In this document: one piece after another, positions 10,568-50,398 of the stretch
How the letters are laid out: every line of letters starts with the position of its first letter
How positions within the stretch are numbered: the first letter of the stretch is position 1
Assembly: GCA_030681525.1 (NCBI GenBank)
Contig: JAUXSD010000135.1
Span: forward strand, 1 to 50,743
Reading direction: 5' to 3'
From: Solirubrobacteraceae bacterium
GTDB lineage: Bacteria; Actinomycetota; Thermoleophilia; Solirubrobacterales; Solirubrobacteraceae
DNA length: 50,743 nucleotides
Position numbers and translations under genes: made by a program
Notes under the pieces: model-generated
Told to the model about the DNA's origin: nothing
Databases searched by the model: none
Seen by the model: only the letters and a program-made list of their open reading frames with translations

Positions 10568-10569
10568 TA

Positions 10570-10990: not shown

Positions 10991-11201
10991 GGCCACGTTC
11001 GAGGCGTTCGCCACGTGGCGGACCGATGCCGCCGCCGGCCCGCCGCCGCGCCGCACGATGCCCGCCGGTTCAGCGCCGGGCGAGCCCCTGCGGGCGCCTC
11101 CTCGCTCCCGCGCGGCCGCGGGCGCGCGCGAGCGCCTGCGCCGCGTGCTGCCGCGCGGGCAGCGTGCGGCGGCGGCGCGCTGCGCGTGATGAGATAGGCG
11201 C

Positions 11202-33876: not shown

Positions 33877-34227
33877 CTACGACGCCTGATCGGCCCCCGA
33901 TCTGGCGCGTGGCTTCTCCCCCAGCTGCGCGGCCGGCGCCTTCGCGGCCAGCTCCGGCGGCGGCCGCCATGGCTCTCCCGGCTTGCGCTCCGGCGGCTTC
34001 CAGCCCTTCGCCGTCATGCCGAGCGCGCTCATCGCGCGTTCCTTCGCCGCCCAGGGGATCCGGCGGTACACCGGCACGAAGAACACCCGCCAGAAGCGGT
34101 CCCCCTTCGGCCGGTAGGGCTCGACCGTTCCGGGCTGGCCGCGGCCGATCTCGCTCAGCACCGCGCGCCGCAGCGCCCCCTCGGAGCGCTCGCGCAGGTT
34201 GCGCTTGGCGTCCGACAGCCCGCTCAT
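33877..34227 (-). CDS. small basic protein of unknown function, 116 aa, last gene of the nitrogen super-operon
   Basis: ATG 34227 overlaps the stop of the flavoprotein gene (ATGA). The sequence is hydrophilic and basic: Ser-Asp-Ala-Lys-Arg-Asn-Leu-Arg-Glu-Arg, then Pro-Lys-Gly-Asp-Arg-Phe-Trp-Arg-Val-Phe-Phe-Val-Pro-Val-Tyr-Arg-Arg-Ile-Pro-Trp-Ala-Ala-Lys, and a Pro/Lys-rich tail. No membrane helix or known motif. As the eleventh gene of an unbroken overlapping run it is probably made with the others. Function unknown. Confidence 0.65.
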   Translation of the reverse strand: MSGLSDAKRNLRERSEGALRRAVLSEIGRGQPGTVEPYRPKGDRFWRVFFVPVYRRIPWAAKERAMSALGMTAKGWKPPERKPGEPWRPPPELAAKAPAAQLGEKPRARSGADQAS

Positions 34228-35579
34228 GTCGCGACCGCCAGCCGGTTGGCCCGCTGCTCGGCCAGCGCGTTCTGCGCGGCGATCTGGATCGGCTCGAAGA
34301 GCGCGCCGATCGGCGGCGAGTAGATGTTCTCCATGTACGCGAGGTCGTAGAGGGTGGCGCCGCGCTTCGCGGCGAAGGCCAGGAAGTCGCAGCGCTCCTT
34401 GACGCCCTCGCCGCCGTGGATCACCCCGCCGATGAGCCGCAGCGTGTCCGGCTCGGCGAGCAGCTTGACGAACGTCTTCTCGGCGCCGGGGTAGTAGCGC
34501 GCTTTCGTGATGCCGACGCCCTTGGCCAGCACGTACGGGATGCCGACCGACTTCGCGAGGTTCTCGCCCATCGAGAAGCCGCCGATCGTGTAGTCGCCGG
34601 CGACCATCCCCCACGGCACCCAGACCGGGTCGTAGGCCAGGTCGCCGCCGGTGATGTTCACCGCCGCGACGCGGCCCTGCGCGTACGCGTGCGCGCCGGT
34701 CAGGCCGACGATCGGGATCATGTTCAGACCGTGCGGGATCTCGACGACGTCGCCCGCGGCCCAGACGCCGGGCGCCGAGGTGCGCATGTGGTCGTCGACG
34801 ACGACCGCGCCGGTCGTGCCGAGCTTCAGCCCGGCGGCCTCGGCCAGCTTCGTGTTGGGCACCTTGTGCAGGCCGGTCACGACCGCGTCGCACTCGAGCA
34901 CGCCGTCGCTCGTGACGACCGCGTTGACGTGGCCGTCCTTGTCGCCCTCGAAGGACTCGGTCTTCGTGCCGAGGTGCAGCGTCACGCCGCGCGCCTCCAG
35001 CGAGTCGTGGACCGGCTTGGCGACATCCGGATCGAGGATCTCGTGCAGGACCCACGGACCCTCGTCGACGAGGTCGACCTGCAGGCCGCGGCGCGCCAGC
35101 CCGCCGGCCATCTCGACGCCGACGGGGCCGGCGCCGACGACGACGATCCGCTTCATCGAGTCCAGCTGCTTGTCGAACTCCATCGACTGGCGGATGTCCT
35201 TGACGTAGTGGATGCCGTCGAGGTTCACGCCCGGGACGTCGGGCTGCTCCCAGAAGAAGCCCGTGCAGAGGATGAGCTGGTCGAAGCCCTCGGGCTGGTT
35301 CTTCGTGGTGATCGTGCGCCGGTCGAGGTCGATGTCGGTGACGACCGTCTCCATGCGCATGTCGAGGCCGTCCTCCTCGTAGCGCTGGACCGTCGACAGG
35401 AAGAGGTCCTCGAACTTCTCGATCTCGCGGCCGTGCACGAACGGGATGCCGCAGGGCGAGTAGGCGATGTCCGAGAACTCCGTGAAGACGCTCACCTTGA
35501 GCTCGGGGTTCAGACGTTTGGTGATGGTGGCGGCTGCCGTCCCCGCGCCGCCACCGCCGATGACGACTACGCGCTCCAT
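34224..35579 (-). CDS. FAD-dependent pyridine nucleotide-disulfide oxidoreductase, CoA-disulfide reductase-like, 451 aa
   Basis: FAD site Val-Ile-Gly-Gly-Gly-Gly-Ala-Gly-Thr at residues 6-14, NAD(P)H site Val-Val-Val-Gly-Ala-Gly-Pro-Val-Gly-Val-Glu-Met-Ala, and Trp-Ala-Ala-Gly-Asp-Val near residue 280. A single redox Cys43 in Tyr-Ser-Pro-Cys-Gly-Ile-Pro-Phe is in the position of the active Cys of CoA-disulfide reductases and NADH oxidases. A C-terminal dimerisation domain completes the normal length. It overlaps the PLP decarboxylase gene upstream (13 bases) and the small basic gene downstream (4 bases). Its electron acceptor in this pathway is unknown. Confidence 0.87.
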   Translation of the reverse strand: MERVVVIGGGGAGTAAATITKRLNPELKVSVFTEFSDIAYSPCGIPFVHGREIEKFEDLFLSTVQRYEEDGLDMRMETVVTDIDLDRRTITTKNQPEGFDQLILCTGFFWEQPDVPGVNLDGIHYVKDIRQSMEFDKQLDSMKRIVVVGAGPVGVEMAGGLARRGLQVDLVDEGPWVLHEILDPDVAKPVHDSLEARGVTLHLGTKTESFEGDKDGHVNAVVTSDGVLECDAVVTGLHKVPNTKLAEAAGLKLGTTGAVVVDDHMRTSAPGVWAAGDVVEIPHGLNMIPIVGLTGAHAYAQGRVAAVNITGGDLAYDPVWVPWGMVAGDYTIGGFSMGENLAKSVGIPYVLAKGVGITKARYYPGAEKTFVKLLAEPDTLRLIGGVIHGGEGVKERCDFLAFAAKRGATLYDLAYMENIYSPPIGALFEPIQIAAQNALAEQRANRLAVAT

Positions 35580-36784
35580 GATGGTTCCTCTCGGTCGGAG
35601 ATGATCAGGTCTGAAAGCTCCTCGCGCCGGCGGGCGATGCGCCAGGTCCCGCCGTCGCGCGCGACGACGCCCGGCCGCAGGTCGCCGAACTGCGTCGACT
35701 GCACCTGCTGGTAGGCGCCCACGGCGCGGGCGATCAGCACGTCGCCGACGGCCAGCTCGCCGAGCGGCGCGGCGGGCGCGACGACATCGATGTTCAGGCA
35801 CAGCGGGCCGGCGACGAGCGTGGGCGAGGACACCGTCCCCGCCCGCCCCCGCGGCGCCAGCGCCTCCAGCTGCGGCCAGGCCCACAGCGCGCCGGGCAGC
35901 AGGTCGGTGCCGCCGTCGACGACCGCGCAGACCGTGCCGTCGGCGAGCGTCTTGACCGCGACGACGGTCAGCGCGAGGTCGACGGCGTCGGCGACGAGCG
36001 CGCGGCCCGGCTCGAGCAGCACGCGCCCGCCGAACCCTTCGCGCAGCAGGACCTCGCCCACCGCCGCGGCGTGCTCGGCCACCGCCGGCGCGGCCGGGAG
36101 GCCGCCGCCGAGGTCGATCGTCGGGACGCCCAGCTCGGCGGCCAGCCGCGCGAGGATCGTGGCGGCCTGCGCGTGGACGGCCGGCGGCTTGGCCCAGCCG
36201 ACCCGGACGTTCGCGGCCAGCGTGCCGGACCGCTCGTCGCCGAGCGCCGCGGTGAAGTCCGTCGAGACGAGGTGCACCGAGAGCACCTCGAGCGTCAGCC
36301 CCAGGTCGCGGGCGCGTCGCCCCGCCGCGACGACGGCGGCGGGCGCGATTCCGAAGCGACTCGGGTGTCCCTCCGGACCGGGCAGGCCGACGCGCAGCCC
36401 CACCCGGCTGACGCCGGCCAGGGCCAGGCGCTCGAGCTCCGCCGCGCTGTCGGCGATGACGAGCGCGCCGTCGGCCGCGCTGCGCGCCAGCAGCGCGTCG
36501 GGCTTGGCCGGTCCGTTGACCGTGATCCGCGCGCCGTCGACGCCGACGATGTCGCGCGCCAGCGCGTACTCGGCCGCGCAGACGACCTCGGCCCCGGCGT
36601 CGTCGTCGGCGAAGGCGCGCAGGAACGCGGTCGTGCGGTTGGTCTTGTAGGAGTAGGAGATCTCGACGTCGGGCCACACCGCCGACCAGGCGGCGCGAAA
36701 GCCGGCCAAGCGCTCGCGCGCGCGGTCGACGTCGGCCAGCCACAGCGGCGAGCCGTGCTCGGCCAGCAGCGCGACGACGCTCAC
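35567..36784 (-). CDS. fold-III PLP-dependent decarboxylase, 405 aa
   Basis: GTG 36784 overlaps the preceding stop (GTGA). The PLP Lys is Lys47 in Ser-Tyr-Ser-Tyr-Lys-Thr-Asn; His-Pro-Ser-Arg-Phe-Gly-Ile, the phosphate loop Asp-Leu-Gly-Gly-Gly-Leu and Glu-Pro-Gly-Arg-Ala-Leu-Val follow in the order of the alanine-racemase-like barrel and C-terminal beta domain. This is the diaminopimelate/ornithine/carboxynorspermidine decarboxylase family. The usual Cys-Glu-Ser-x-Asp motif is replaced by Ala-Gly-Pro-Leu-Cys-Leu-Asn-Ile-Asp. Substrate unknown; an amino acid linked to the surrounding nitrogen cluster is likely. Confidence 0.87.
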   Translation of the reverse strand: MSVVALLAEHGSPLWLADVDRARERLAGFRAAWSAVWPDVEISYSYKTNRTTAFLRAFADDDAGAEVVCAAEYALARDIVGVDGARITVNGPAKPDALLARSAADGALVIADSAAELERLALAGVSRVGLRVGLPGPEGHPSRFGIAPAAVVAAGRRARDLGLTLEVLSVHLVSTDFTAALGDERSGTLAANVRVGWAKPPAVHAQAATILARLAAELGVPTIDLGGGLPAAPAVAEHAAAVGEVLLREGFGGRVLLEPGRALVADAVDLALTVVAVKTLADGTVCAVVDGGTDLLPGALWAWPQLEALAPRGRAGTVSSPTLVAGPLCLNIDVVAPAAPLGELAVGDVLIARAVGAYQQVQSTQFGDLRPGVVARDGGTWRIARRREELSDLIISDREEPSWSA

Positions 36785-38142
36785 AACCCGCCTCGCACGG
36801 TCGCGGCGAGATCGATCGCGCGCGGCGTGCCCTTGCTGTCCAGCAGCGCCGCGACCGGCTCGCGCCAGCGCCCGGACGCCGCCTCGGCGATCGCCTCCGG
36901 CAGCATCGCGCGCAGGTGCTCCATCGCCCACGGATCGGGCCGGGAGAGGTTCAGGCGCAGCGTCGTCGCCGCGCCGGTCGTGCCCATCCCGTCGCCGGGG
37001 TACGTCGCGACGCGGCGCGCGAACAGGGCCACCATGAGCTCCTGCGAGGTGACGCCGGCGCCCGACGTGTCCAGGGCACAGGCCAGCCCGCGCACCGGGG
37101 CGGTGGTGAGCTCCAGGCCGTCGACATCGGCCAGCGTCGCCTGCAGATGCGCGAGGTTGCCGCGCACGATCCCCTGCGCATGCGCGAGGTAGTGCTCGTC
37201 GCGCAGCGCCGCGAGCGCCCCGTGCTGGGCGATCAGGCTCGTGTTCAGGCGCGTCAGCGCCGCCTTCAGGCGCAGGCAGCTGCGCATGAGGCGCGACGGC
37301 CCGGCGAGGAAGCCGATCCGCGCGCCCGCCATGCCGAAGCAGTGCGAGACCGAGAACGTGGCGACCGCGTTGGCGGTCAGCTCGAGCGCCGGAAGGGACC
37401 GGAACGGCACGTCGGGGTCGATGACGAGCGACCCGTGCGTGACGTCGTGGATGAGCAGCAGGTCATGCTCGTCGGCCAGGCGGGCGAGCGCGGCGAGCTC
37501 GTCCTCGGTCTGCACGGTGCCGTAGGGGTTCAGCGGATCGACGATGACGATCGCGCGGGTGCGCGGCGTGATCGCGGCGGCCACGACGTCGGGGTCGAGG
37601 CGGTAGCCGTTGGAGGCGTCGATCGAGACGGTGACCGGCGTCGCGCCCGCCGCGATGACCGCCGACGGGACGTGGAAGTAGCCCGGATCCGACAGGATGA
37701 CCTCGTCGCCGGGCCCGGCCACCGCCATGAGCGACAGCGCGATCCCGGCCTGGGCGCCCTCGGTGCCGATGACCTCGAAGCCGTCGTCGCGGGCGCGGCC
37801 GAGGACGCCGGCCGCCGCCTCGCGCAGCGGCTCGATGAGATCGGGGCTGTACTGGTTGAGGTGCTCGGCGGTCACCGCGTCGCGCATCGCGTCGACGGCG
37901 CTCGCCGGCGGGCCGGCGAAGCACGTCAGCCACCCGAGGTCGGCCCACGTCGCGGGATCCAGCCGCGTCGTGCCGCCCGGATAGAGGTCCGCCGGGTTCA
38001 GCCCGACGATCCCGATGGCGTCGCGGTAGGTCAGGTAGTTCCACATCGCGTGGTGGGAGCGCTCGAGCAGGCGCAGCCGGTCGGATGCCAGCCGCGGGGT
38101 GCTGCCGGGGTCGGCCCCCCACGTCAGGACGGAGGAGCTCAT
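36781..38142 (-). CDS. fold-I aminotransferase-like protein lacking the PLP lysine, 453 aa
   Basis: Overall an aminotransferase class I/II fold: Gly-Thr-Glu-Gly-Ala-Gln-Ala-Gly in the cofactor phosphate region, Ser-Asp-Pro-Gly-Tyr-Phe, Asn-Pro-Tyr-Gly-Thr-Val near residue 205, Asp233 in Leu-Ile-His-Asp-Val, and Arg-Leu-Asn-Leu-Ser near the C-terminus. At the Schiff-base position the expected Ser-Lys is Ser-His: Phe-Ser-Val-Ser-His267-Cys-Phe-Gly-Met-Ala-Gly-Ala-Arg-Ile-Gly (codon CAC). Normal transamination would be impossible without that Lys. It overlaps the methyltransferase stop (ATGA) and the decarboxylase start (GTGA). It could be a PLP sensor, a PLP-independent enzyme or a structural partner. 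Confidence 0.85.
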   Translation of the reverse strand: MSSSVLTWGADPGSTPRLASDRLRLLERSHHAMWNYLTYRDAIGIVGLNPADLYPGGTTRLDPATWADLGWLTCFAGPPASAVDAMRDAVTAEHLNQYSPDLIEPLREAAAGVLGRARDDGFEVIGTEGAQAGIALSLMAVAGPGDEVILSDPGYFHVPSAVIAAGATPVTVSIDASNGYRLDPDVVAAAITPRTRAIVIVDPLNPYGTVQTEDELAALARLADEHDLLLIHDVTHGSLVIDPDVPFRSLPALELTANAVATFSVSHCFGMAGARIGFLAGPSRLMRSCLRLKAALTRLNTSLIAQHGALAALRDEHYLAHAQGIVRGNLAHLQATLADVDGLELTTAPVRGLACALDTSGAGVTSQELMVALFARRVATYPGDGMGTTGAATTLRLNLSRPDPWAMEHLRAMLPEAIAEAASGRWREPVAALLDSKGTPRAIDLAATVRGGL

Positions 38143-39017
38143 CGCGCCGCTCCCGGCGCGGCGTCGGCGCGCACGAAGCGCATGACGCGGTAGATGCCGT
38201 GGCGGTCGGCGGTCACGGATGCCGCGGCATACCCAGCCACGCGGGCGTAATCCATGATCTGCTCGGCTGGGCGCAGCCGCCACACGCAGCGCCCGCCCGC
38301 GGCGTTGCGCCAGACCCGCGCGATGTACTCGATCTCGGGGTTGGCGACCTGCACGTTGCAGACGATCTGGGCCGGCGCGACGGTCTCGGCGAGGTCGCTG
38401 AAGTGGCGCTCGATGACGGCATCGTCGTGGTAGATGCCGTACAGGCCCAGCTCGCAGACGACGTCCGGGCGTGGCCGCAGGGCGGTCAGCGCGGCGCGGT
38501 CGAAGGCGCTCGCCTGCCGGGTGGCGACGCGGTCCTGCACGCCCAGCTCGCGCGCGGCGCCGGCCGCCTGCGCGAGCGCCGCGGCGTCGATGTCGCAGAG
38601 CACCGCGCTCGCCCCCGGGCGGCGGGTCAGCGCGTGCAGCAGGTACGGGCTCGGGCCGGCGGCCAGGTCCGCGACGACCGGACTCGGCGTCTCGGCGGCG
38701 TCGATCGCTTCGAGCACCGCGGCCTCGGCCAGGCCGCGGATGTCGCGAAACGCCTGGCAGGTCGCGCGGTTCAGCAGCCGGCGGTCCAGCCGGCGCCCCA
38801 GCGGCGTGCGGCCGACCGCGCGGTCGGCGTAGACATGGGCCATGAACGGGCCGGAGTCGAAGCCGTGGCGGTGGCCGATCCGCGTGCCCTCCGAGACACG
38901 GGCCTCCGCACGCGACGCCAGCGACAGCGCGGCGAAGCGCCACGCCCGCGGGGAGCTGCGCGGCAGCTCGGCGCGCAGCGACTCGAAGCGGCGGGCGGCG
39001 GCGAGCTCAGCCGACAT
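38139..39017 (-). CDS. class I SAM-dependent methyltransferase, Methyltransf_20-like, 292 aa
   Basis: A helical N-terminal part with Gly-Phe-Asp-Ser-Gly-Pro-Phe-Met-Ala-His-Val-Tyr and Thr-Pro-Leu-Gly-Arg-Arg-Leu-Asp-Arg-Arg-Leu-Leu-Asn precedes the Rossmann core: Val-Val-Ala-Asp-Leu-Ala-Ala-Gly-Pro-Ser-Pro-Tyr (SAM motif I) and Val-Leu-Cys-Asp-Ile-Asp (motif II). The Gly-Phe-Asp-Ser-Gly start is what I associate with the Methyltransf_20 family, some of which are fused to lipases. Target unknown. It overlaps genes on both sides (11 and 4 bases). Confidence 0.78.
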   Translation of the reverse strand: MSAELAAARRFESLRAELPRSSPRAWRFAALSLASRAEARVSEGTRIGHRHGFDSGPFMAHVYADRAVGRTPLGRRLDRRLLNRATCQAFRDIRGLAEAAVLEAIDAAETPSPVVADLAAGPSPYLLHALTRRPGASAVLCDIDAAALAQAAGAARELGVQDRVATRQASAFDRAALTALRPRPDVVCELGLYGIYHDDAVIERHFSDLAETVAPAQIVCNVQVANPEIEYIARVWRNAAGGRCVWRLRPAEQIMDYARVAGYAAASVTADRHGIYRVMRFVRADAAPGAAR

Positions 39018-39543
39018 ACAGGCCGGTCTCGACGAGCTCGCGCAGCCGGTAGAGCTCGTGCGCGTCGAAGGCGGCGCTGTGCGGCTGGCGCATGAGCTCG
39101 GCCAGCCGCGCTCGCGCGGCGTCGTTGTCGGCGGCGACCAGCGCGATCGTCGCCGCGTCCTCGCCGGTCGCGCCGGCGGCGTAGGCGTCCAGCAGCTGGC
39201 CGAAGTGATCCAGCGAGCCGGCCGCGTAGGCGACCAGCTCGTCGAAGTCCTCGATGCGCTCGATGCGCTCGTAGATCGCCTCGCCCTCCGGCGGCGCGAC
39301 GTAGGCGTCGGGGTCGACGCCGTGGGCCACGGCGCGCGCCCGGAAGAGGTTCATGTGGCGGGCGTTGGCGGCGACGATCTCGGCCAGCAGCTGCTTGGCC
39401 TCGGGATCGCACGTCAGCGGAACGCGGATCGAGAACAGGTCGACCCAGCGGCGCATCCCGTAGGCGTGGCGCGCGAAGACCTTGCCGATCCGCCGTGGAT
39501 CGTCGAACAGCACGCCGAGCAGCTCGTCGCGGTTGTCAAGCAT
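39007..39543 (-). CDS. all-helical protein, possibly ferritin-like, 178 aa
   Basis: Predicted to be almost entirely helical, with Glu/His-bearing helices: Phe-Ala-Arg-His-Ala-Tyr-Gly-Met-Arg-Arg-Trp, Leu-Leu-Ala-Glu-Ile-Val-Ala-Ala-Asn-Ala-Arg-His-Met, Glu-Asp-Phe-Asp-Glu-Leu-Val and Ser-Leu-Asp-His-Phe-Gly. This spacing would suit a four-helix diiron (ferritin-like) bundle, but the usual Glu-x-x-His pairs are not clearly there. Embedded in the overlapping run (8 bases with osmC-like, 11 with the methyltransferase). Function unknown. Confidence 0.7.
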   Translation of the reverse strand: MLDNRDELLGVLFDDPRRIGKVFARHAYGMRRWVDLFSIRVPLTCDPEAKQLLAEIVAANARHMNLFRARAVAHGVDPDAYVAPPEGEAIYERIERIEDFDELVAYAAGSLDHFGQLLDAYAAGATGEDAATIALVAADNDAARARLAELMRQPHSAAFDAHELYRLRELVETGLYVG

Positions 39544-39970
39544 TGGACGGATTGGTGGGCGGGGAGTGGAGCACGGTGGACACGTAGGAGACCTCGAGAT
39601 CGTCGGCGAGCATGTTGGAGACCCAGCAGAACGGCTTGGCGCGGGTGACGAGGGCGGCCAGGTCGTGCTCGCCCGAGGCCGCCGCGACCTCCACGCGCAG
39701 GCGGCTGTAGCGCAGCTCCTTGCCGACGCGCTCGGCGTCGACGGTGACCCGCAGGCCCGGCAGCTCGATGTCGCGCTTGGCCGCGACGTGGGCGACCGCG
39801 AGGCAGAAGCAGCTCGCCAGGCCCGCGAAGAACAGCTCGGTCGGCATCATGCCCTGGTTGCCGCCGCCGTACGTCTCGGGCTCGTCGGCGGTCAGCTCGT
39901 GGTCGCGCGCCGTAACGGTGGCCGACAGCCCACCCTGCCAGCGCGCCTCGACGTGGCGTGGCTCGCTCAT
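39536..39970 (-). CDS. OsmC/Ohr family protein, 144 aa
   Basis: The OsmC fold is recognisable by Gly-Met-Met-Pro-Thr-Glu-Leu-Phe-Phe-Ala-Gly-Leu-Ala-Ser-Cys-Phe in the first half and Ala-Lys-Pro-Phe-Cys-Trp-Val-Ser-Asn-Met-Leu in the second, giving the two Cys residues that reduce organic hydroperoxides in active members. Arg near the N-terminus of the core is also present. Within this operon it might protect against, or act on, a reactive intermediate. ATG 39970 overlaps nothing upstream but its start pairs with the glycosyltransferase stop (ATGA). Confidence 0.88.
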   Translation of the reverse strand: MSEPRHVEARWQGGLSATVTARDHELTADEPETYGGGNQGMMPTELFFAGLASCFCLAVAHVAAKRDIELPGLRVTVDAERVGKELRYSRLRVEVAAASGEHDLAALVTRAKPFCWVSNMLADDLEVSYVSTVLHSPPTNPSNA

Positions 39971-41148
39971 GACGACAGCGCTCCGAGCATCGGGTCGGCC
40001 TGAAACGAGCGGTAGGCGTCCTCGTGCGCGACCGCCGCGACATCCCAGCCGTAGGCGTCGACGACCTCGCGGCCGCCCGCGACGAGACGCGCACGCAGCG
40101 CCGGGTCACGCGCGAGCCCGACGAGCGAGCTGCCCAACGCGCTGCCGTCGCCGGGGGGCGACAGCAGCGCGCTTTCCCCGTGGGACAGGAAGGTGAGAAA
40201 GACGTCGATCTCCGACGCGACGACCGGCAGCCCGGCGGCGAGCGCCTCGAGTGCGACGAGCCCGAAGCCCTCCTTCGTCGACGGGAAGGCGAAGACGTCG
40301 GCCGCGCGGTAGTGGCGCTCGAGCTCGGCGGGCGTCACGGTGCCGACGACGCGCACGTGCTCGCTGACGCCGAGCGCCCGGGCCCGCTCCGCGAAGCGGT
40401 CGATCTCGTCGCGGTAGTCGAACAGCGTCGCGCCGCCGACGACGAGCAGCAGCGGGTCGCGCTCGGGCGCCTCGGCGCGCAGCTTCGCGAAGCCCTCCAG
40501 CAGCGTGAGCGATCCCTTGCGCGGCTCGATGCCGCCGACGGTGAGCACGGTCAGGCGGTCGCCAAGCCCCAGCGCGGCGCGGTCGGCCGCGCGCTCGGCG
40601 GCGTCGCGCGGCGCCCGGAAGCGGTCGCGGTCGACGCCGTTTCGCACGAGCCGGGCGTCGACGCCGAACTCGTCGGCCAGCCGCTCGATCCACGGCTGCG
40701 ACACGCAGAGCACGAGGTCGGGCATGAGGATCGACCGGTCCTGGCAGGCGATGAGCGACGGCGAGATGAAGTCGTCGACGTGGTGGACCGTGCGCACGAC
40801 GTGGTCGATGACGCCCTCGTCGCGCAGGTCGAGCGCCGCGTTGGCCGAGATGCAGTCCTGGGCGTGGACGATGTCGAAGGCGCCGCCGGCCAGCAGCGGG
40901 CGCAGCCCCTCGCGGTAGGCGGCGACCATCGCCAGGATCCGCTCGTCGAACACCGGCTCGGTCGGCACGTGCTCGACGAGATGCGTCGCCACCCCGCCGG
41001 CCGGCGCGCGGAAGAACGCCTCGCCGGGCTGGGCCAGCGCCGCCGCGCAGACCTCTTGGCCGCGGCCGGCCAGCGCCTCGGCGACGGCGAGCGCGTGCTC
41101 GACGCCGCCGCGCGGCTTGACCGAGTACGTGAGCATCGCCACCCTCAT
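39967..41148 (-). CDS. MSMEG_0565-type GT4 glycosyltransferase, 393 aa
   Basis: GT-B fold, family GT4. The N-terminus Met-Leu-Thr-Tyr-Ser-Val-Lys-Pro-Arg-Gly-Gly-Val-Glu-His-Ala-Leu matches the conserved beginning of the MSMEG_0565 glycosyltransferases that accompany the Nit1C nitrogen cluster. Val-Gly-Gly-Ile-Glu-Pro-Arg-Lys-Gly and Pro-Ser-Thr-Lys-Glu-Gly-Phe-Gly-Leu-Val-Ala-Leu-Glu-Ala form the nucleotide-sugar site (E-x7-E type). Sugar donor and acceptor are unknown. Coupled to fdrA-like upstream (ATGA) and the OsmC gene downstream (ATGA). Confidence 0.87.
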   Translation of the reverse strand: MRVAMLTYSVKPRGGVEHALAVAEALAGRGQEVCAAALAQPGEAFFRAPAGGVATHLVEHVPTEPVFDERILAMVAAYREGLRPLLAGGAFDIVHAQDCISANAALDLRDEGVIDHVVRTVHHVDDFISPSLIACQDRSILMPDLVLCVSQPWIERLADEFGVDARLVRNGVDRDRFRAPRDAAERAADRAALGLGDRLTVLTVGGIEPRKGSLTLLEGFAKLRAEAPERDPLLLVVGGATLFDYRDEIDRFAERARALGVSEHVRVVGTVTPAELERHYRAADVFAFPSTKEGFGLVALEALAAGLPVVASEIDVFLTFLSHGESALLSPPGDGSALGSSLVGLARDPALRARLVAGGREVVDAYGWDVAAVAHEDAYRSFQADPMLGALSS

Positions 41149-42638
41149 GCCGCGACCTCGGCCGGGGCGATCGCCCGCAGCGCCAGGCGTGTGGCGGCGG
41201 CGTTCGACGGCGCGACGATCGCGCCGGCGTCGCGCAGGATCTTCGTCTGACGGCCGGCGTCCTGCGGGTCCCCGGTCGTGCCGCAGACGCGGGCGAGTAC
41301 GACCGCGTCCTTCGCCACGGCGCTGATCGCCTCCGACAGGCCGGAGGCGGGATCGCTGTGGCCGCCGTGGCCGAGCACGACGTCGAGCAGGACGCAGCCG
41401 ACGTTCTCGTCCGCCGCCGCCTCCTCGAGGAAGCCCAGCCGCACGTCGAGGTCGACCATCGGGTGCGGGCGGCCCTGCGTGTACTCCTCCTCGCCGAGGT
41501 CGAGCACGGCATGGCCGCCGTTGCGCTCGTCGGAACCGTGGCCGACGTTGCCCTCCAGCGGGCCGAGCTCGGGCTCGAGCAGCGTGACCGCCTCGTGCGC
41601 CAGCGAGCCGCCGGAGAACAGGCCGAGCAGGCGCCGCCCGGCGGAGCGCTCGCGCGCGGCGTCGACGGCCTCTTCCAGCTCGGAGAGATCCTCGGGCTCG
41701 GTGCCGGCCGCGGCACGCGCCGCCGCCTCGAGCGTGTCGTGGATCTCGAAGGGGGCCTCGTCGCCGTTGCCCTCCCAGCCGACGAAGGCGGCGACGACGC
41801 GCTTGCCAGCGGGCAGGTCGCCGGCCAGCGACGCGACGACCTCCGGGGCCGGCGGCTTGGAGACGAGCAGCAGCGTCTCGGTCTCGTCGTCGGCGGCGAG
41901 CAGGTGCATCGCCTGGCGGAACATGATCCCGCCGATGTCGGCCGACAGATCGCGGCCGCCGACGCCGACGATCTGCGAGACGCCGACGCCGGCGTCGTCG
42001 AGCAGGCAGGCGGACTCCTGCGCGCCGGTGCCCGCGGCGGCGACGATGCCGACCGGGCCCGAGGTGACGACGTTGGCGAAGCCGAGCCCGACGTTGCCGA
42101 GCATCGCGGTGCCGCAGCCCGGGCCCATGACGAGCAGCCCGAGCTCCTGGCCGCGCTGCTTGAGCTCGAGCTCGTCCTCGAGCGAGACGTGGTCGGAGAA
42201 GAGAAGGACGTGCATCCCGGCGCTCAGCGCGCGATGCGCCTCGAGCGTCGCGTACTCGCCGGCGACCGAGATGAGCGCGAGGTTCGGATCCGACAGCCGG
42301 CGCCGCGCGGAGACCAGCGAGCGCGGCGGCTCGCGGTCGGCCTGGCCTCCGGCCGAGGCTCCCGAGGCGGCGCCGCCGCTGGAGAGCTCCTCCTCGGCGG
42401 CCTTCAGCGTGTCCTGGGCGACGTCCTCGCCCTCGGCGTCGACCGCGACGATGAGATCCGACGGGCCGGCGCCGGACACCTCGACGCCGCGGGCCTCGAG
42501 CGCCTCGAGGTTGGCGGCGGTGCCCATGCCCATCTCGCAGCCGGCGACGCCGTCGCGGCTACGCAGGCCGCGGGCGATGCCCATGAGCTTGACGCTGTCC
42601 GCGTAGCGGTTGGCGATGACCTTCACATGCCAGCTCAC
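41145..42638 (-). CDS. FdrA/AllF-like subunit of an oxamate-carbamoyltransferase-type complex, 497 aa
   Basis: The fold is that of succinyl-CoA synthetase alpha/beta chains fused: a CoA-binding-like domain with Met-Gly-Pro-Gly-Cys-Gly-Thr-Ala, Ala-Ala-Gly-Thr-Gly-Ala-Gln-Glu and Val-Gly-Gly-Arg-Asp-Leu-Ser, then a ligase-like part with Gly-Leu-Phe-Ser-Gly-Gly-Ser-Leu and Val-Leu-Gly-His-Gly-Gly-His-Ser-Asp-Pro. In E. coli the counterpart is one of three subunits that transfer a carbamoyl group to phosphate in allantoin breakdown. GTG 42638 overlaps the carbamate kinase stop. The other two subunits lie at 48973 and 50399, on the other strand. Confidence 0.87.
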   Translation of the reverse strand: MSWHVKVIANRYADSVKLMGIARGLRSRDGVAGCEMGMGTAANLEALEARGVEVSGAGPSDLIVAVDAEGEDVAQDTLKAAEEELSSGGAASGASAGGQADREPPRSLVSARRRLSDPNLALISVAGEYATLEAHRALSAGMHVLLFSDHVSLEDELELKQRGQELGLLVMGPGCGTAMLGNVGLGFANVVTSGPVGIVAAAGTGAQESACLLDDAGVGVSQIVGVGGRDLSADIGGIMFRQAMHLLAADDETETLLLVSKPPAPEVVASLAGDLPAGKRVVAAFVGWEGNGDEAPFEIHDTLEAAARAAAGTEPEDLSELEEAVDAARERSAGRRLLGLFSGGSLAHEAVTLLEPELGPLEGNVGHGSDERNGGHAVLDLGEEEYTQGRPHPMVDLDVRLGFLEEAAADENVGCVLLDVVLGHGGHSDPASGLSEAISAVAKDAVVLARVCGTTGDPQDAGRQTKILRDAGAIVAPSNAAATRLALRAIAPAEVAA

Positions 42639-43576
42639 AGCAGCGCGGCCTCCTGCTCGGCCTCGATCCAGGTGCCGTCCTCGCCGCGGATCGCGGCCAG
42701 CAGCGATGCGGGATCGGTGATGATCGCGGCGCGCCCGCCGCCGGTCGCGAAGCGGTGGGCGGACTCGACCTTCGGGCCCATGCTGCCGGGCGGAAACTCG
42801 CCGGCCTGCAGCCGCCGTTGCGTCTCGGACGCGCTCATGTGAAACAGCGGGCGCTCCCAGCGCGTGCCGAAGTCCTCGACGACCCGCGGGACGGCGGTCA
42901 GCAGCACGAGGATGTCAAAGCCCAAGGCGATGCCGAGCTCGGCCGAGGAGCGGTCCTTGTCGATGACCGCCGCCATGCCCGACAGCGTGCCGCCGCGGGT
43001 GCTGACGGGGATGCCTCCGCCGCCGCCGGCGATGACGATCTCGCCGCTCTCGGCGAGCACCCGGATCGCCTCGAGCTCGAGGATCTCGACGGGCTTGGGG
43101 CTGGCCACCATGCAGCGCCAGCCGCGCCCGGAGTCCTCGCCGACGGTCCAGCCGCGCTCGCGGGAGAGCCGCTTGGCGTCCTCCTCGGAGTAGAACGGGC
43201 CGACCGGCTTGGTCGGGTTGTCGAACGCCGGGTCGTCGTCGTCGACGCGCACGCGGGTCAGGATCGTCGCGGTCTGGGCGGTGGGATCGATCTCCGCGAT
43301 GCTCGTCTGCAGCAGGTAGCCCAGCTCGCCCTGCGTCATCGCGCCGAGCGCGTGCAGCGGCAGGCCGGGGACCTGCGGCTCGCCCATCGCGTGCTGGAGC
43401 ATGAGCGTGCCGACCTGCGGGCCGTTGCCGTGGGTCAGCACGACCTGATGGCCGTCGCGGCGCAGCGCCACGACGGCCTCGGTCACCGGCCGAGCGCTGT
43501 CGAGCTGGTCGGCCCAGGTGCCGCGCTGGTTCTCCTTGAGCAGGGCGTTGCCGCCGACGGCGATCACGATCCTCAT
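42635..43576 (-). CDS. arcC: carbamate kinase, 313 aa
   Basis: Amino-acid-kinase fold: Ile-Val-Ile-Ala-Val-Gly-Gly-Asn-Ala-Leu at the start, Thr-His-Gly-Asn-Gly-Pro-Gln-Val-Gly, Ile-Ala-Gly-Gly-Gly-Gly-Gly-Ile-Pro-Val, Ala-Val-Ile-Asp-Lys-Asp and Gly-Ser-Met-Gly-Pro-Lys-Val. It converts carbamoyl phosphate and ADP to ATP, ammonia and CO2. No arginine deiminase or ornithine carbamoyltransferase is near, so the carbamoyl phosphate probably comes from the FdrA-AllG-AllH-like complex. It follows the regulator gene by 4 bases and overlaps the fdrA-like gene. Confidence 0.94.
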   Translation of the reverse strand: MRIVIAVGGNALLKENQRGTWADQLDSARPVTEAVVALRRDGHQVVLTHGNGPQVGTLMLQHAMGEPQVPGLPLHALGAMTQGELGYLLQTSIAEIDPTAQTATILTRVRVDDDDPAFDNPTKPVGPFYSEEDAKRLSRERGWTVGEDSGRGWRCMVASPKPVEILELEAIRVLAESGEIVIAGGGGGIPVSTRGGTLSGMAAVIDKDRSSAELGIALGFDILVLLTAVPRVVEDFGTRWERPLFHMSASETQRRLQAGEFPPGSMGPKVESAHRFATGGGRAAIITDPASLLAAIRGEDGTWIEAEQEAALL

Positions 43577-43580
43577 GTCC

Positions 43581-44240
43581 TCAATCCACTCCCCTCACCA
43601 TGAACCAGAGCGCGCGCGCCGAGCGCTCGGTCGGGTTTTGCCACGTGTGCGGCCGGTCGGTTCGAAAGTGGATCGAGTCGCCGGCCGCGAGGTCGATCGG
43701 CTTGCCGTCGACCGTGAAGCGCAGCGCGCCGTCGAGCAGGTAGACGAGCTCCTCGCCGGGGTGGCGCATCGGGTCGGGCCCGCTGTCGGCCAGCGGCTCG
43801 ACGACGGCCTCGGCGCCCGCCAGGCGGTAGCGGCCGTAGCGGCCGGAGACGTTGTCGAGCGCGATCCCGCTCTTCGAGGTGTACAGCCGCGCGCGCTCGT
43901 CGCCGCGAACGACGATCGCCGCCGGCACCGCGACGTCCTCGTCGATGAAGAAGCTCACGCTCGTGCCGAGCGCCGCCGCGACCTTCATGAGCGTCGCGAT
44001 CGTCGGGGTCATGCCGCTCTTCTCGATCTTGTGCACGGACGCCGTCGACACGCCCGCCCGGCGGGCCAGCTCGGCCAGCGACCAGCCGCGCTCGGCGCGG
44101 GCCATCGCGAGCTTCGCGCCGAGCGCCGAGACGGTCCGCTCGATGTCCGGCAGCGAGAGCGGTGCGATCTTGCGCTCGGGCGAGCCGCCTTCGAGGATGT
44201 GATCGGGGCTGGATGACACGACGTGTCGGATAGTACACAT
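43581..44240 (-). CDS. XRE-family regulator with cupin domain, 219 aa
   Basis: Helix-turn-helix of the XRE type at about residues 35-92 (Leu-Ala-Met-Ala-Arg-Ala-Glu-Arg-Gly-Trp-Ser-Leu-Ala-Glu-Leu-Ala-Arg-Arg-Ala-Gly-Val-Ser), followed by a cupin barrel (His-Pro-Gly-Glu-Glu-Leu-Val-Tyr-Leu-Leu-Asp-Gly, Asp-Ser-Ile-His-Phe-Arg-Thr-Asp-Arg-Pro-His). Regulators of this type (such as PuuR) sense small amines or acids through the cupin. ATG 44240 or GTG 44219 may be the start. It is the first gene of the minus-strand run and probably controls both arms through the motif at 44215-44228 and 44326-44334. Confidence 0.92.
   Translation of the reverse strand: MCTIRHVVSSSPDHILEGGSPERKIAPLSLPDIERTVSALGAKLAMARAERGWSLAELARRAGVSTASVHKIEKSGMTPTIATLMKVAAALGTSVSFFIDEDVAVPAAIVVRGDERARLYTSKSGIALDNVSGRYGRYRLAGAEAVVEPLADSGPDPMRHPGEELVYLLDGALRFTVDGKPIDLAAGDSIHFRTDRPHTWQNPTERSARALWFMVRGVD
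44215..44228. promoter_or_regulatory. putative operator 1 of the XRE-cupin regulator
   Basis: GACACG-A-CGTGTC is a 13-base palindrome overlapping the start region of the regulator gene. Its right part plus one base, GACGTGTCG, recurs at 44326-44334 inside the promoter facing the other way. Palindromic form and repetition in the shared control region suggest a binding site. Confidence 0.5.
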
Positions 44241-44314
44241 CCGTCGGCGTCATGCAACACGGCCGTAACGCCCCCGAAACATTAGGGCCCAAGCGTGCGA
44301 ATCATGGTTTCGAC

Positions 44315-44343
44315 TTGACGCGCGGGACGTGTCGCGCTAGGAA
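44315..44343 (+). promoter_or_regulatory. putative promoter with embedded operator for the plus-strand arm
   Basis: TTGACG (44315-44320) as -35, a 17-base spacer, and TAGGAA (44338-44343) as a weak -10. The spacer contains GACGTGTCG (44326-44334), shared with the palindrome at the regulator start. A protein bound here would sit between the two promoter boxes. The -10 is poor, so the promoter may need an activator. Confidence 0.45.
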
Positions 44344-44362
44344 TGCGTACACAATCCGATAT

Positions 44363-44401
44363 GGGTTCCGGCTGCGGAACCCGGCCGGCGTGACAGCCGG
44401 C
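44363..44401 (+). promoter_or_regulatory. two tandem hairpins in the leader of the MSMEG_0572-like gene
   Basis: GGGTTCC-N6-GGAACCC (44363-44382) and GCCGGC-N6-GCCGGC (44384-44401) are perfect stems of 7 and 6 bases with 6-base loops, one base apart. They end 8 bases before the AGGAGG ribosome-binding site. They may modulate translation or elongation of the plus-strand arm. I could not match them to a known riboswitch. Confidence 0.4.
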
Positions 44402-44408
44402 TATACCC

Positions 44409-44415
44409 AGGAGGG
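44409..44415 (+). promoter_or_regulatory. strong ribosome-binding site of the MSMEG_0572-like gene
   Basis: AGGAGGG, four bases before ATG 44420. Near-perfect Shine-Dalgarno sequence, stronger than most in this window, selecting this start over an earlier in-frame ATG at 44252. Confidence 0.8.
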
Positions 44416-44419
44416 ACGC

Positions 44420-44896
44420 ATGGCCGACAACTTGACGGACGCCGGAACCGAGCTGTTCAACACCAGCGAGAAGCTCTTCGAGGACATCCAGGCCGAGCCT
44501 GGACAGTCGGCGTACACGTTCATGCACACGGTGCCCTACGAGGGTTCGGTGGGCCTCGTGAACCTGCTCACCACGACGCGCGTCCTGCGCAAGGGATTTC
44601 AGACCAACCTGATCCTGTACGGCCCCGGCATCCTGATGGCCTCGGGTACTCGCGGCTTCCCGAAGGTCGGCGACGAAGCCTTCCCGGGCCACATGGCGAT
44701 CAACAACCAGATCGGCAAGTTCATCGAGGAGGGCGGCAACGTCTACGCGTGCCGGTTCGCCGCCGGCGCCCTGTACGGATTCCCGGAGGCGAACTTCATG
44801 CCAGGCGTCAAGCCGTTCCATCCGCTCGACGTGCTCGACGCCGCCCTCACCGCGTGGCGCGACAAGGCGTTCCAGCTCAACACCTGGACCGTCTAG
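44420..44896 (+). CDS. MSMEG_0572/Sll0783 family nitrogen-starvation response protein, 158 aa
   Basis: The sequence [14 protein letters not shown], [18 protein letters not shown] and [11 protein letters not shown] matches the small DsrE-like protein that opens Nit1C clusters. In Synechocystis its homologue is strongly induced by nitrogen starvation and affects polyhydroxybutyrate build-up. A Cys in the position of a DsrE redox Cys is present. First gene of the plus-strand arm, with promoter, leader hairpins and a strong ribosome-binding site. Confidence 0.9.
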
Positions 44897-44900
44897 GGCG

Positions 44901-45530
44901 ATGCTCGTGCTGGACCGGGACGCAGCGGTGGCCGCGTGGCGCCGGGCGGAGGGGCACATCTACCCCACCGTCATGCTCAACGCGACGCTCTACCAGGAGT
45001 ACGTGGCGGTCATCAGAGGGATCGCCGAGGAGCTCGCCGACGTCCACAGCGAGGACGACCTCGTGCTGGCATGGCACGAGCGCCGCGACCTCGCGGACGC
45101 GGTGATCTCCCGCACCGCTCCGTCGATGGCCCAGCTCATGAACCGCGAAGGGCTGCGCGATGCGGCGTTCTGCACCCGCCACCGCGAGATCACGCGGGAG
45201 CAGGGCAAGCAGATCGCCGCGCAGCGGCTCGAGGAGGCCAAGCGCACCGGTGCCGAGTGGGTCACGTTGTTCGACGACGTGACGCCGCTCGGCGCTCAGC
45301 GCCTGGAGATGCACGTCCGCAGCGGGCGCGCACTGCATACGAGCACGGAGCTGCCGCTCGACGGCACCCACCCGTCCTGGGAGCTCGAGGTCGTCCAGCT
45401 CGACCCCCACGACGGGGCCTGGCTGCTGGACAAGCCTCCGCTGCTGCAGACCCAGAAGTTCGACCGTCAAGACGAATGGGAGGCGCGCGTGCAGCAGGCC
45501 CGGACCTCCTTCGGAGGTGACCTGCCGTGA
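44901..45530 (+). CDS. unknown protein between the MSMEG_0572-like and amidohydrolase genes, 209 aa
   Basis: Starts 4 bases after the preceding stop and overlaps the amidohydrolase start (GTGA), so it is a full member of the operon. Soluble, acidic/basic mixed, helical first half (Ala-Ala-Trp-Arg-Arg-Ala-Glu-Gly-His-Ile-Tyr-Pro-Thr-Val-Met-Leu-Asn, Leu-Val-Leu-Ala-Trp-His-Glu-Arg-Arg-Asp) and beta-rich second half (Ala-Glu-Trp-Val-Thr-Leu-Phe-Asp, His-Pro-Ser-Trp-Glu-Leu-Glu-Val). One Cys, in Ala-Ala-Phe-Cys-Thr-Arg-His. I recognise no family. It is not a standard Nit1C component, to my knowledge. Confidence 0.8.
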   Translation: MLVLDRDAAVAAWRRAEGHIYPTVMLNATLYQEYVAVIRGIAEELADVHSEDDLVLAWHERRDLADAVISRTAPSMAQLMNREGLRDAAFCTRHREITREQGKQIAAQRLEEAKRTGAEWVTLFDDVTPLGAQRLEMHVRSGRALHTSTELPLDGTHPSWELEVVQLDPHDGAWLLDKPPLLQTQKFDRQDEWEARVQQARTSFGGDLP

Positions 45531-46387
45531 CGACCCACCCGAAGAAGATCATCGACGCGCACTGCCACATCGGCGAGATCCCGCCGTGGAAGTTCTACGA
45601 CCTCGAGCACCCGGTCAAGCCGACGGTCTACGACTACAAGGACACGAAGGCCTTCATCAAGAACCACATGGACGAGTTCAAGATCGAGCGCGCGCTCGTC
45701 ATGTCGAACTACGGCGTGCCGATCCACGAGCTGTCGTTCGACCTCAACGAGGTCGTGCTCGACGCGGCCGGGAGCACGGACCGCATCCTCGGCGCGATCT
45801 GGGTCTCGTTCCTTCCGCGCAACGCCGAGATGACGCGCAAGGCGCTCAAGCACGCCGCGGAGTCCCCCGTCGTCGCGCTGAAGACGACGTTCCTGCTCGG
45901 CGGCAACCCCGACCCGAACACGTGGGACGAGGAGACGCAGGCGATCGCCGACGAGTGCTTCGACGTCTGCGAGAAGCACGACCTCGTCTTCCACTTCCAC
46001 ACGAGCCCGGGCGGCAACTCGGACTTCTCGAACTTCGTCCCGCTCGTCGAGAAGTACGGCAAGCGCTGCAAGATCTATCTCGTCCACATGGGCGGCGGCG
46101 TCTCGGGCCACATCAAGCTCGTGCCGAAGTTCCTCGACTGGTGCGAGCAGGGCTTCAAGGTCTACACGGACACGTCGTGGGCCGTCGGCTTCGGCGCGCG
46201 CTGGCTGCTGACCGAGATCGAGCGCCGCGGCGTCGGCGGCGACCGCGTCTTCTTCGGCTCCGACGAGCCGTGGTCGGACTTCGACTCGGAGTACTGGAAG
46301 CTCAACGGCGTGCGCAACATCTCCCAGGAGCTCAAGGACAACGTCTTCTGGCGCAACTTCGAGAACCTGTACGACAACCGTGGGTGA
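45527..46387 (+). CDS. amidohydrolase-2 family metal-dependent hydrolase, 286 aa
   Basis: TIM-barrel amidohydrolase: His12-Cys-His14 in Ile-Ile-Asp-Ala-His-Cys-His-Ile-Gly, Phe-His-Thr-Ser-Pro-Gly-Gly after strand 5, Val-His-Met-Gly-Gly-Gly after strand 6, and the final Asp in Phe-Gly-Ser-Asp-Glu-Pro-Trp. These give the mononuclear metal site of the family that includes decarboxylases and hydrolases of cyclic or carboxylated substrates. GTG 45527 overlaps the previous stop. In Nit1C clusters the place next to the Sll0783-like gene belongs to a nitrilase; here this unrelated hydrolase is found instead. Confidence 0.9.
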   Translation: MTTHPKKIIDAHCHIGEIPPWKFYDLEHPVKPTVYDYKDTKAFIKNHMDEFKIERALVMSNYGVPIHELSFDLNEVVLDAAGSTDRILGAIWVSFLPRNAEMTRKALKHAAESPVVALKTTFLLGGNPDPNTWDEETQAIADECFDVCEKHDLVFHFHTSPGGNSDFSNFVPLVEKYGKRCKIYLVHMGGGVSGHIKLVPKFLDWCEQGFKVYTDTSWAVGFGARWLLTEIERRGVGGDRVFFGSDEPWSDFDSEYWKLNGVRNISQELKDNVFWRNFENLYDNRG

Positions 46388-47546
46388 GCCCGCCGTCACC
46401 GACCGGCCGCCGCTGTCGCTCGACGACCGGCGCCTGCTCGTCGAGCTGCAGTCCTTCGGCGTGCGCGTCGTCGGCGGCGACGGCACGCTGGGCCGCCGCG
46501 GCGGCGCCGGCCCGTCGGACGCGCTGTTCATGTACGTGCGCGGGCTGCCGCTGACGGTGCCCCAGCACGCCGAGTACGTCGGCGGCTCGCCGTACACGCT
46601 GCACCTCGACGGCGCGAAGCCCACGCTGTTTCGCGAGGAGGAGCTCGTCGGCGTCGTCGGGCTGCCGCGGCGCCCGAAGATCTACGACATGCAGACGGCG
46701 GACGGGATCCCGTACTGGAAGATCGCGCTGCTGCATCTGGACTCGATCGCCTCGACCGTCGTGCAGAAGTGCATCTACTGGGGCACGCACGAGCAGTGCG
46801 GCTTCTGCGGCATCGAGCTCACCCGCGGCGAGCAGACGATCCCGGTCAAGACGCCGGCGCAGCTCGCCGAGGTGTGCAGCGCGGCGCACGAGCTCGACGG
46901 CGCCGTCGACGCGACGCTGACGACCGGCTCGATCAACCGCCGCGACCGCGGCGCGCTGTACATCTCGCGCTGCGCGGCGGCGATCAAGGACGCCTGCGGC
47001 ATGCCCGTGCAGGTGCAGTTCGAGCCGCCCGACCAGCTCTCGGTCATCGAGGACGTGCACCGGGCGGGCGTCGACGCCGTCGGCATCCACATCGAGACGT
47101 TCGATCCCGACGTGCTGGCGCGTGTCGCGGCCGGCAAGGCGCAGTGCGGCGTCGAGGGCTACTTCCGCACGTGGGAGAAGGCCGTCGAGGTCTTCGGCCG
47201 CGGCCGCGTGACGACGTACGTGATCCTCGGCATGGGCGAGCGCCGCGAGCTCATCGAGGAGGGTTGCCGCCGCGCGATCGAGATGGGCGTCTACCCATTC
47301 GTCGTGCCGATCCGGCCCGTGCCGGGCACGCTGCTGGAGGACACCCCCACCCCCGACCCCGACTACGTCGCCGGCATCTACCGCAGCGTGTCCGCGATGC
47401 TCGCCGAGTCCGGCCTGGACCATTCCGAGGCCGCGGCGGGTTGCGCGCGCTGCCAGGCCTGCTCGGGCCTGTCGGCCTGGGAGCGCGTCTTCGAGAAGGA
47501 GGACAACGGTGGCCATTTCCAGCTCGGCACCGTCCAGGCTTCCTGA
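46380..47546 (+). CDS. MSMEG_0568 family radical SAM protein, 388 aa
   Basis: Cluster cysteines Cys131-x8-Cys140-x2-Cys143 (Cys-Ile-Tyr-Trp-Gly-Thr-His-Glu-Gln-Cys-Gly-Phe-Cys-Gly-Ile) depart from the common CxxxCxxC but are what the Nit1C radical SAM protein shows. Glu in Ile-His-Ile-Glu-Thr-Phe-Asp and Ile-Leu-Gly-Met-Gly-Glu fit the SAM barrel. A second Cys set near the C-terminus (Cys-Ala-Arg-Cys-Gln-Ala-Cys-Ser) could hold an auxiliary cluster. GTG 46380 overlaps the amidohydrolase end by 8 bases. Substrate unknown. Confidence 0.9.
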   Translation: MGEPAVTDRPPLSLDDRRLLVELQSFGVRVVGGDGTLGRRGGAGPSDALFMYVRGLPLTVPQHAEYVGGSPYTLHLDGAKPTLFREEELVGVVGLPRRPKIYDMQTADGIPYWKIALLHLDSIASTVVQKCIYWGTHEQCGFCGIELTRGEQTIPVKTPAQLAEVCSAAHELDGAVDATLTTGSINRRDRGALYISRCAAAIKDACGMPVQVQFEPPDQLSVIEDVHRAGVDAVGIHIETFDPDVLARVAAGKAQCGVEGYFRTWEKAVEVFGRGRVTTYVILGMGERRELIEEGCRRAIEMGVYPFVVPIRPVPGTLLEDTPTPDPDYVAGIYRSVSAMLAESGLDHSEAAAGCARCQACSGLSAWERVFEKEDNGGHFQLGTVQAS

Positions 47547-48015
47547 GCACCGCCTCGTCCCGGTCTGCGCGCTGGCGCGCGACCCGGAGGAGTTGGCGGC
47601 GCATTTCACGATCCGGCGCAGCGTGTTCGTCGCGGCCCAGGGGCTCTTCGAGCTCGACGACCGCGACGCGCGCGACGACGACCCGGCGACGCTGCACGCC
47701 GTCGGCCTCACCGGTGAGGACATCGTCGGCGCGGTGCGCCTGTATCCGCTCGACGGTGACGGCCTCTGGAAGGGCGACCGCCTCGCGGTCCTGCCGACCG
47801 AGCGCGCGCTGCGCCTCGGCGCGATGCTCGTGCGCTTCGCCGTGCGCACCGCCGGCGAGCGCGGCGGCCGGCTGATGGTGGCGCAGGTCCAGTTGCCCAA
47901 CGTGCCGTTCTTCGAGCGCCTCGACTGGCACCGCGACGGCGAATCGGCGCCGATGCTCGGCGTCGAGCACCAGCCGATGGCGATCGAGCTCAGCCCCCCC
48001 GACCCAGGCCGGTGA
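47509..48015 (+). CDS. MSMEG_0567/Sll0786 family GNAT acetyltransferase, 168 aa
   Basis: GTG 47509 has AAGGAGGA six bases upstream and lies 38 bases inside the radical SAM gene. The GNAT fold is visible from Phe-Thr-Ile-Arg-Arg-Ser-Val-Phe-Val-Ala-Ala-Gln, Ile-Val-Gly-Ala-Val-Arg-Leu-Tyr-Pro, Arg-Leu-Gly-Ala-Met-Leu-Val-Arg-Phe-Ala-Val and Val-Pro-Phe-Phe-Glu-Arg-Leu-Asp-Trp. It is the standard Nit1C acyltransferase; the acceptor is unknown. Its 3' end overlaps the convergent AIR-synthase-like gene by 26 bases. Confidence 0.88.
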   Translation: MAISSSAPSRLPEHRLVPVCALARDPEELAAHFTIRRSVFVAAQGLFELDDRDARDDDPATLHAVGLTGEDIVGAVRLYPLDGDGLWKGDRLAVLPTERALRLGAMLVRFAVRTAGERGGRLMVAQVQLPNVPFFERLDWHRDGESAPMLGVEHQPMAIELSPPDPGR

Positions 48016-48934: not shown

Positions 48935-48972
48935 CGGCGGGACCCTAGAGAACCCGAAAATCGGAGGACGTT

Positions 48973-50391: not shown

Positions 50392-50398
50392 GCGCGCC

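Follow-up and report, generated by a model that had tools for sequence, protein, structure and literature searches.

In a 50,743-nucleotide stretch of DNA from a Solirubrobacteraceae bacterium (contig JAUXSD010000135.1, positions 1 to 50,743; hereafter the window), we find a gene for an aminotransferase-fold protein, P0001, in which a histidine occupies the position of the lysine that forms the Schiff base with pyridoxal 5′-phosphate (PLP). Translation of the window gives a protein of 453 residues, encoded on the minus strand with a stop codon at its end, whose residue 267 is His within the motif ATFSVSHCFGMAGARIGF. In an alignment to solved aspartate aminotransferases, His267 falls on the Schiff-base lysine (Lys258) and Asp233 on Asp222 (stretch FSVSHCFGMAGAR), and the NP-x-G loop is kept as N205-P-Y-G; an earlier note on this DNA had picked out these same features, and translation and alignment bear it out. 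From the sequence, we consider it about an even bet (a probability of roughly 0.5) that P0001 is an active fold-type-I vitamin B6 enzyme that works without a Schiff-base lysine and has as substrate an amino or keto acid of a carbamoyl-nitrogen pathway. Its reaction is probably one not yet described, and not the usual transfer of an amino group. The gene and the residues on which this reading turns are as follows.

36781–38142, minus strand: P0001, the lysine-less aminotransferase-fold protein of 453 residues (PF00155, 121.7 bits; AlphaFold2 model; orthologues)
37342–37344, minus strand: His267, at the position of the PLP lysine (Lys258), codon CAC (alignment, orthologues)
37435–37437, minus strand: His236, at the Tyr225 position (His in 17/17 orthologues, Tyr in the 27 nearest Lys-type relatives)
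37444–37446, minus strand: Asp233, the kept equivalent of Asp222, which faces the pyridine nitrogen (alignment)
37264–37266, minus strand: Lys293, where the nearest Lys-type relatives have Gln; no other lysine is invariant (alignment)
36955–36957, minus strand: Arg396, the kept equivalent of Arg386, which binds the substrate α-carboxylate (alignment)

The orthologues of P0001, 46–91% identical to it and drawn from different genera, carry the same replacement. Across 17 genomes, the window included, position 267 is His in 16 and its codon is deleted in one, and none has Lys; both CAC and CAT are used for the histidine. Lysine-bearing orthologues in the same operon, which the earlier note had said would speak against its proposal, were searched for in these genomes and none was found. 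The cofactor-site residues and Arg396 are kept as well, and the family has therefore not decayed. The change from lysine to histidine is a fixed family feature rather than decay or error. A degenerate DNA pattern for HG[YF]GMAGAR matched only members already known, and a plasmid search returned only matches of ~30–36% identity, none over 80% of the query. The orthologue at locus L036 (9082–10434, plus strand) reads SGLA-GLGLASIRLG in this region, with serine in place of the glycine at window position 273, and its frame and cluster are intact.

Beyond residue 267, a second cofactor contact has changed. The Tyr225 position, which contacts the 3′-OH of the cofactor, is also His (residue 236) in all 17 orthologues, and the family reads DVTH or DTTH where the Lys types have DEIY. 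Among the nearest 27 Lys-type homologues in a sample of 198 genomes of the phylum, every one has Lys and Tyr at the two positions. The rest of the canonical set (Tyr225, Asp222, Asn194, Arg266 and Arg386) is kept as Asp233, Asn205, Arg275 and Arg396, together with Tyr98 for Tyr70*, and these five residues are invariant across both clades of the family. The contacts to the pyridine nitrogen, to the 3′-OH (through Asn), to the phosphate and to the substrate carboxylate remain in place. The lysine-free cofactor site that the earlier note had suggested is thus plausible in view of the conserved Tyr98*, Asn205, Asp233, Arg275 and Arg396, but it is altered at the Tyr225 position, which the note had missed. 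Invariant positions number only 106 of 453; histidine is conserved at 157, 236 and 267 alone, and Lys293 is the sole lysine invariant in 17/17 orthologues. Pocket residues are altered in a fixed manner across the family at H157, Y/F207, K293 and R298, the last two standing where the nearest Lys-type relatives near-universally have Gln and Ser. By alignment, K293 and R298 would lie in the segment that, in aspartate aminotransferase and GntC, helps to form the other subunit's substrate pocket. Arg292 of aspartate aminotransferase comes from the partner subunit. This residue touches the maleate ligand (PMC6715241), and H250* of GntC is likewise supplied by the other monomer (PMC10367076).

The fold of P0001 is that of the class I/II aminotransferases. 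PF00155 is its best curated family, scoring 121.7 bits against a cut-off of 19.7 over residues 78–410, and an alignment-based AlphaFold2 model has a mean predicted local distance difference test score (pLDDT) of 86.6 and a predicted template modelling score of 0.88. The top Foldseek matches of this model are all aminotransferases (aspartate, prephenate and aromatic); the best solved matches are of the Iγ type (1gd9, 6f5v and 1j32), with GntC (8fft) ranked 48. Membership of the ColD/E1/SpnQ group (DegT/DnrJ/EryC1) was considered and rejected: PF01041 covers only residues 124–237 at 62 bits, no DegT-type model is among the best NCBIfam matches, and the fold matches are also contrary. The ColD-type chemistry raised in the earlier note therefore remains as an analogy, whereas membership of ColD/E1 fails, P0001 being of class I/II (Iγ) with the Arg386 equivalent kept; its resemblance to ColD is convergent. 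Assignment to GntC (NF041364, 162.1 bits against a cut-off of 415, with His at the catalytic K219 position) and to the capreomycidine synthase VioD (TIGR03947, 103.1 bits against 390.9) fails as well.

Maximum-likelihood analysis places the His sequences on one side of a branch with a Shimodaira–Hasegawa-like approximate likelihood ratio support of 100; the stem length is 2.77 changes per column. The family, which we refer to as His-AT, is one clade of a single origin on a long stem, whose placement among the Lys-type enzymes is uncertain owing to long branches. Our survey covered the Actinomycetota, with one contig scan by a single-sequence query beyond. The His-AT gene is present in 16 of 399 genomes in a sample of the class, and an order-wide search added 2 more. 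These fall into a near clade 65–91% identical to P0001 and a second clade, from another family of the class, at 46–52%.

The His-AT gene overlaps its neighbour on each side by 4 bases, and every junction from the carbamate kinase gene to the disulfide oxidoreductase gene overlaps by 4–13 bases; the gene is translationally coupled within this operon. Together with a divergent arm, the operon makes up a nit1C-like/AllFGH cluster, which the earlier note had also missed, along with the invariant Lys293. Its other genes are the following.

34224–35579, minus strand: FAD/NAD disulfide oxidoreductase, coenzyme A-disulfide reductase-like (PF07992; TIGR03385, 285 bits, below cut-off)
35567–36784, minus strand: P0002, group IV PLP decarboxylase, LysA/ornithine decarboxylase-like (PF02784, PF00278; TIGR01048 below cut-off), overlapping the His-AT gene by 4 bases
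38139–39017, minus strand: methyltransferase found in Solirubrobacteraceae-type clusters only (PF12147)
39007–39543, minus strand: operon protein of 178 residues, conserved in near-clade clusters, no family matched
39536–39970, minus strand: OsmC-like protein (PF02566)
39967–41148, minus strand: MSMEG_0565-family glycosyltransferase (TIGR04047, 385.6 bits, over cut-off)
41145–42638, minus strand: AllF (FdrA)-like subunit (NF004760, 419 bits, cut-off 433)
42635–43576, minus strand: carbamate kinase-like protein (TIGR00746, 335.6 bits, cut-off 358; NF009007, 282.6 bits, cut-off 266)
43581–44240, minus strand: helix-turn-helix–cupin regulator, PuuR-like (profile matches)
44252–44896, plus strand: MSMEG_0572/Sll0783 (NitB) protein, which starts the divergent arm, conserved part 44432–44896 (TIGR04044, 201.8 bits, over cut-off)
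44901–45530, plus strand: protein of 209 residues seen only with this cluster type, no Pfam or NCBIfam family
45527–46387, plus strand: amidohydrolase (PF04909)
46380–47546, plus strand: MSMEG_0568-family radical SAM protein (NitD; TIGR04043, 377.5 bits, over cut-off)
47509–48015, plus strand: MSMEG_0567/Sll0786 GNAT protein (NitE; TIGR04045, 100.1 bits, over cut-off)
47990–48934, minus strand: Sll0787-family AIR-synthase-like (AIRS) protein (NitF; TIGR04049, 286.2 bits, cut-off 321.3)
48973–50391, plus strand: AllG, oxamate carbamoyltransferase subunit (PF06545, 221 bits)
50399–50743, plus strand: N-terminal part of AllH, the gene being cut by the contig end (65% identity to a PF11392-bearing frame in a sister genome, G070)

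An AllH-family fragment also lies on another contig of the window's assembly (G000:C201:26809-26988). The 209-residue protein at 44901–45530 yields a confident monomer model (pLDDT 85) that matched no solved fold, and a solved-structure search with the Sll0783 protein matched nothing.

The cluster at 34224–50743 recurs in two families of Thermoleophilia. Clusters of the second clade have the same gene set with a luciferase-like monooxygenase in place of the methyltransferase; at L036, an SsuD-like luciferase-family monooxygenase (10450–11451, plus strand) adjoins the His-AT gene at this point. AllF and AllG are present in cluster copies of both clades. Of seven further His-AT genomes tested for AllH, six have it next to the cluster; in the seventh, G126, it was not seen and the cluster contig ends early. 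It stands beside the cluster in none of 5 CN_hydrolase-type genomes tested. Within the class sample, the Sll0783 family is on the same contig as the His-AT gene in 16/16 genomes, compared with 30 of 399 overall, a co-occurrence with a hypergeometric value of 1e-20 that ignores shared ancestry and so overstates its strength. Where Sll0783 clusters lack the His-AT gene and are readable, a CN_hydrolase gene adjoins the AIRS gene in 7/7; at L067, L068, L069, L070, L072, L073 and L074, it lies beside the Sll0783, radical SAM, GNAT and AIRS genes. Of these proteins, that of L073 was scanned against named models; N-carbamoylputrescine amidase scored best, though far short of its cut-off. Conversely, no CN_hydrolase (nitrilase NitC) was found on the cluster contig of multi-contig His-AT genomes or near the cluster in G237 and G330, and tblastn was also negative. 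This distribution of CN_hydrolase and AllFGH therefore defines two alternative Sll0783 cluster architectures in the class, a CN_hydrolase type and a type with AllFGH/carbamate kinase and the His-AT gene. One apparent aminotransferase match, in G300, was set aside: it is a DegT protein of the ordinary kind, and the Sll0783 homologue near it lacks the rest of the cluster.

How might such an enzyme work? With no lysine, an internal aldimine cannot form, which leaves condensation with free cofactor as the substrate's only route. Because the cofactor contacts and the carboxylate-binding Arg are kept, we argue that an amino or keto acid should still bind, as should PLP or pyridoxamine 5′-phosphate (PMP), the cofactor being held non-covalently. 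Recognised by Arg396, the substrate would itself enter into a Schiff base with the free cofactor, and His267 would take the lysine's role as general acid–base at Cα/C4′. As His267 could not re-form an internal aldimine, ping-pong transamination would be less favoured than tautomerisation or a dehydration or elimination of the ColD kind. In ColD, E1 and SpnQ, the His-for-Lys enzymes known in this superfamily, a histidine is the acid–base that starts dehydration, on a PMP-dependent aminotransferase fold (PMC8987622). The nearest named models of P0001 include the cyclodehydratase GntC, which makes dehydration or elimination our leading guess for the predicted reaction. GntC is inactivated by the K219A substitution (PMC10367076), and so in P0001 His267 would need to carry all proton transfers.

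For the pathway, we infer that the cluster may free nitrogen from a carbamoyl (ureido-type) compound, with P0001 acting upstream on an amino-acid-like intermediate. The replacement of CN_hydrolase by the AllFGH/carbamate kinase module suggests a ureido-type intermediate, and the pairing of AllFGH with carbamate kinase hints at carbamoyl phosphorolysis as the end of the pathway. The chemistry of AllFGH is that of an oxamate transcarbamylase (PMC11326118). In the last steps, AllFGH-like enzymes and carbamate kinase would thus give carbamoyl phosphate by phosphorolysis and from it ATP, NH3 and CO2. We propose more tentatively, at a little under even odds, that the His-AT proteins are a novel lysine-independent B6 family within class I/II, convergent with ColD and marked by their fixed pair of histidines and by a new lysine between the subunits, and that they are the signature of a nitrilase-less nit1C-type pathway releasing carbamoyl nitrogen via AllFGH and carbamate kinase.

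Several points weigh against an active, lysine-independent enzyme in such a pathway. The pathway is read from family names only, and loss of the lysine is normally lethal to chemistry of this kind, as the GntC substitution illustrates. In addition, His267 may not be essential everywhere: in G252, at locus L036, its codon is cleanly lost while the frame stays open and the cluster is kept. Finally, the family does have one fixed lysine of its own, Lys293, in place of the near-universal Gln of its nearest Lys-type relatives and in the region of pig Arg292*, the maleate contact (PMC6715241), and of the partner-supplied His250* of GntC (PMC10367076). Lys293 could therefore have taken over the Schiff-base or acid–base duty in trans, leaving fairly ordinary PLP chemistry. 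We regard such a relocation as unlikely, since Lys293 aligns to a substrate side-chain site, where binding of a distal anionic group would be a simpler role, and since it leaves the fixed His pair unexplained.

It is similarly improbable that P0001 is non-catalytic, an aminotransferase pseudoenzyme that binds PLP/PMP or a ligand and serves the cluster as scaffold or sensor. A missing catalytic lysine usually marks such a protein, and the orthologue without His267 fits this view too, but the cofactor-contact and carboxylate-binding residues are invariant over a clade as little as 46% and up to 91% identical, the substrate-pocket residues H157, Y/F207, K293 and R298 have changed in a fixed, family-wide way, and the gene sits among enzymes and encodes no fused DNA-binding domain. 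We give still less weight to a cofactor-independent enzyme that has reused the pocket with a His acid–base pair; by alignment, two invariant histidines would face the former C4′ region, but Asp233, Asn205, Arg275 and Tyr98* would have no obvious reason to persist without PLP. An ordinary aminotransferase with a mis-sequenced or recently mutated lysine codon is refuted by the histidine or deletion found in 17 genomes of different genera and by the presence of both CAC and CAT codons.

Few known residues are as constrained as the PLP lysine, and a clade that has replaced it while keeping the rest of the site is a natural experiment on the need for that lysine. If P0001 is indeed an active B6 enzyme, B6 catalysis based on histidine would have arisen a second time, independently of the ColD group. 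The His-AT cluster is, moreover, a second architecture of the poorly understood nit1C cluster, with a putative carbamoyl-phosphate-forming module in place of CN_hydrolase, and this yields the concrete prediction that a carbamoyl or ureido group is what nit1C pathways process. Our literature search, which left subscription papers outside its scope, found neither a Lys-to-His class I aminotransferase nor a nit1C cluster with AllFGH.

Among known clusters, the closest in gene content is nit1C, which assimilates cyanide and nitriles. The window shares with it NitB, NitD and NitE, each over cut-off, and has a NitF candidate at 286.2 bits, under the cut-off of 321.3, but it lacks the nitrilase NitC and adds AllFGH, carbamate kinase, an amidohydrolase, a decarboxylase and the His-AT gene. 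The allantoin pathway of E. coli, with AllFGH and AllK, likewise combines AllF, AllG and AllH with a carbamate kinase (PMC11326118); in the window, however, this set is embedded with nit1C genes, and no allantoin, ureidoglycolate or AllECD genes are among those examined.

As for the enzyme itself, P0001 shares with the Iγ aminotransferases (1gd9, 1j32, 6f5v and 1bjw) the fold, the NP-x-G loop and the equivalents of Asp222, Arg266, Arg386 and Tyr70*. It differs from them in lacking the PLP lysine, in the change of Tyr225 to His, in its new K293 and R298, in a distinct N-terminal segment of ~75 residues and in an overall identity of ~25%. The ColD/E1/SpnQ 3-dehydratases, like P0001, combine an aminotransferase fold with His where the PLP lysine would be (PMC8987622). 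P0001 nevertheless belongs to a different superfamily branch, and its gene adjoins no sugar-nucleotide genes except one GT4; with the Arg386 equivalent kept, its substrate is more likely an amino or keto acid than a nucleotide sugar. GntC and VioD, of the guanidino-amino-acid cyclases GntC/VioD/OrfR, are among its best-scoring named families (162 and 103 bits, far under the cut-offs of 415 and 391). These cyclases, which carry out an elimination on a hydroxy amino acid, have the α-carboxylate Arg in common with P0001 but, unlike it, use their lysine, as the dead K219A variant of GntC attests (PMC10367076).
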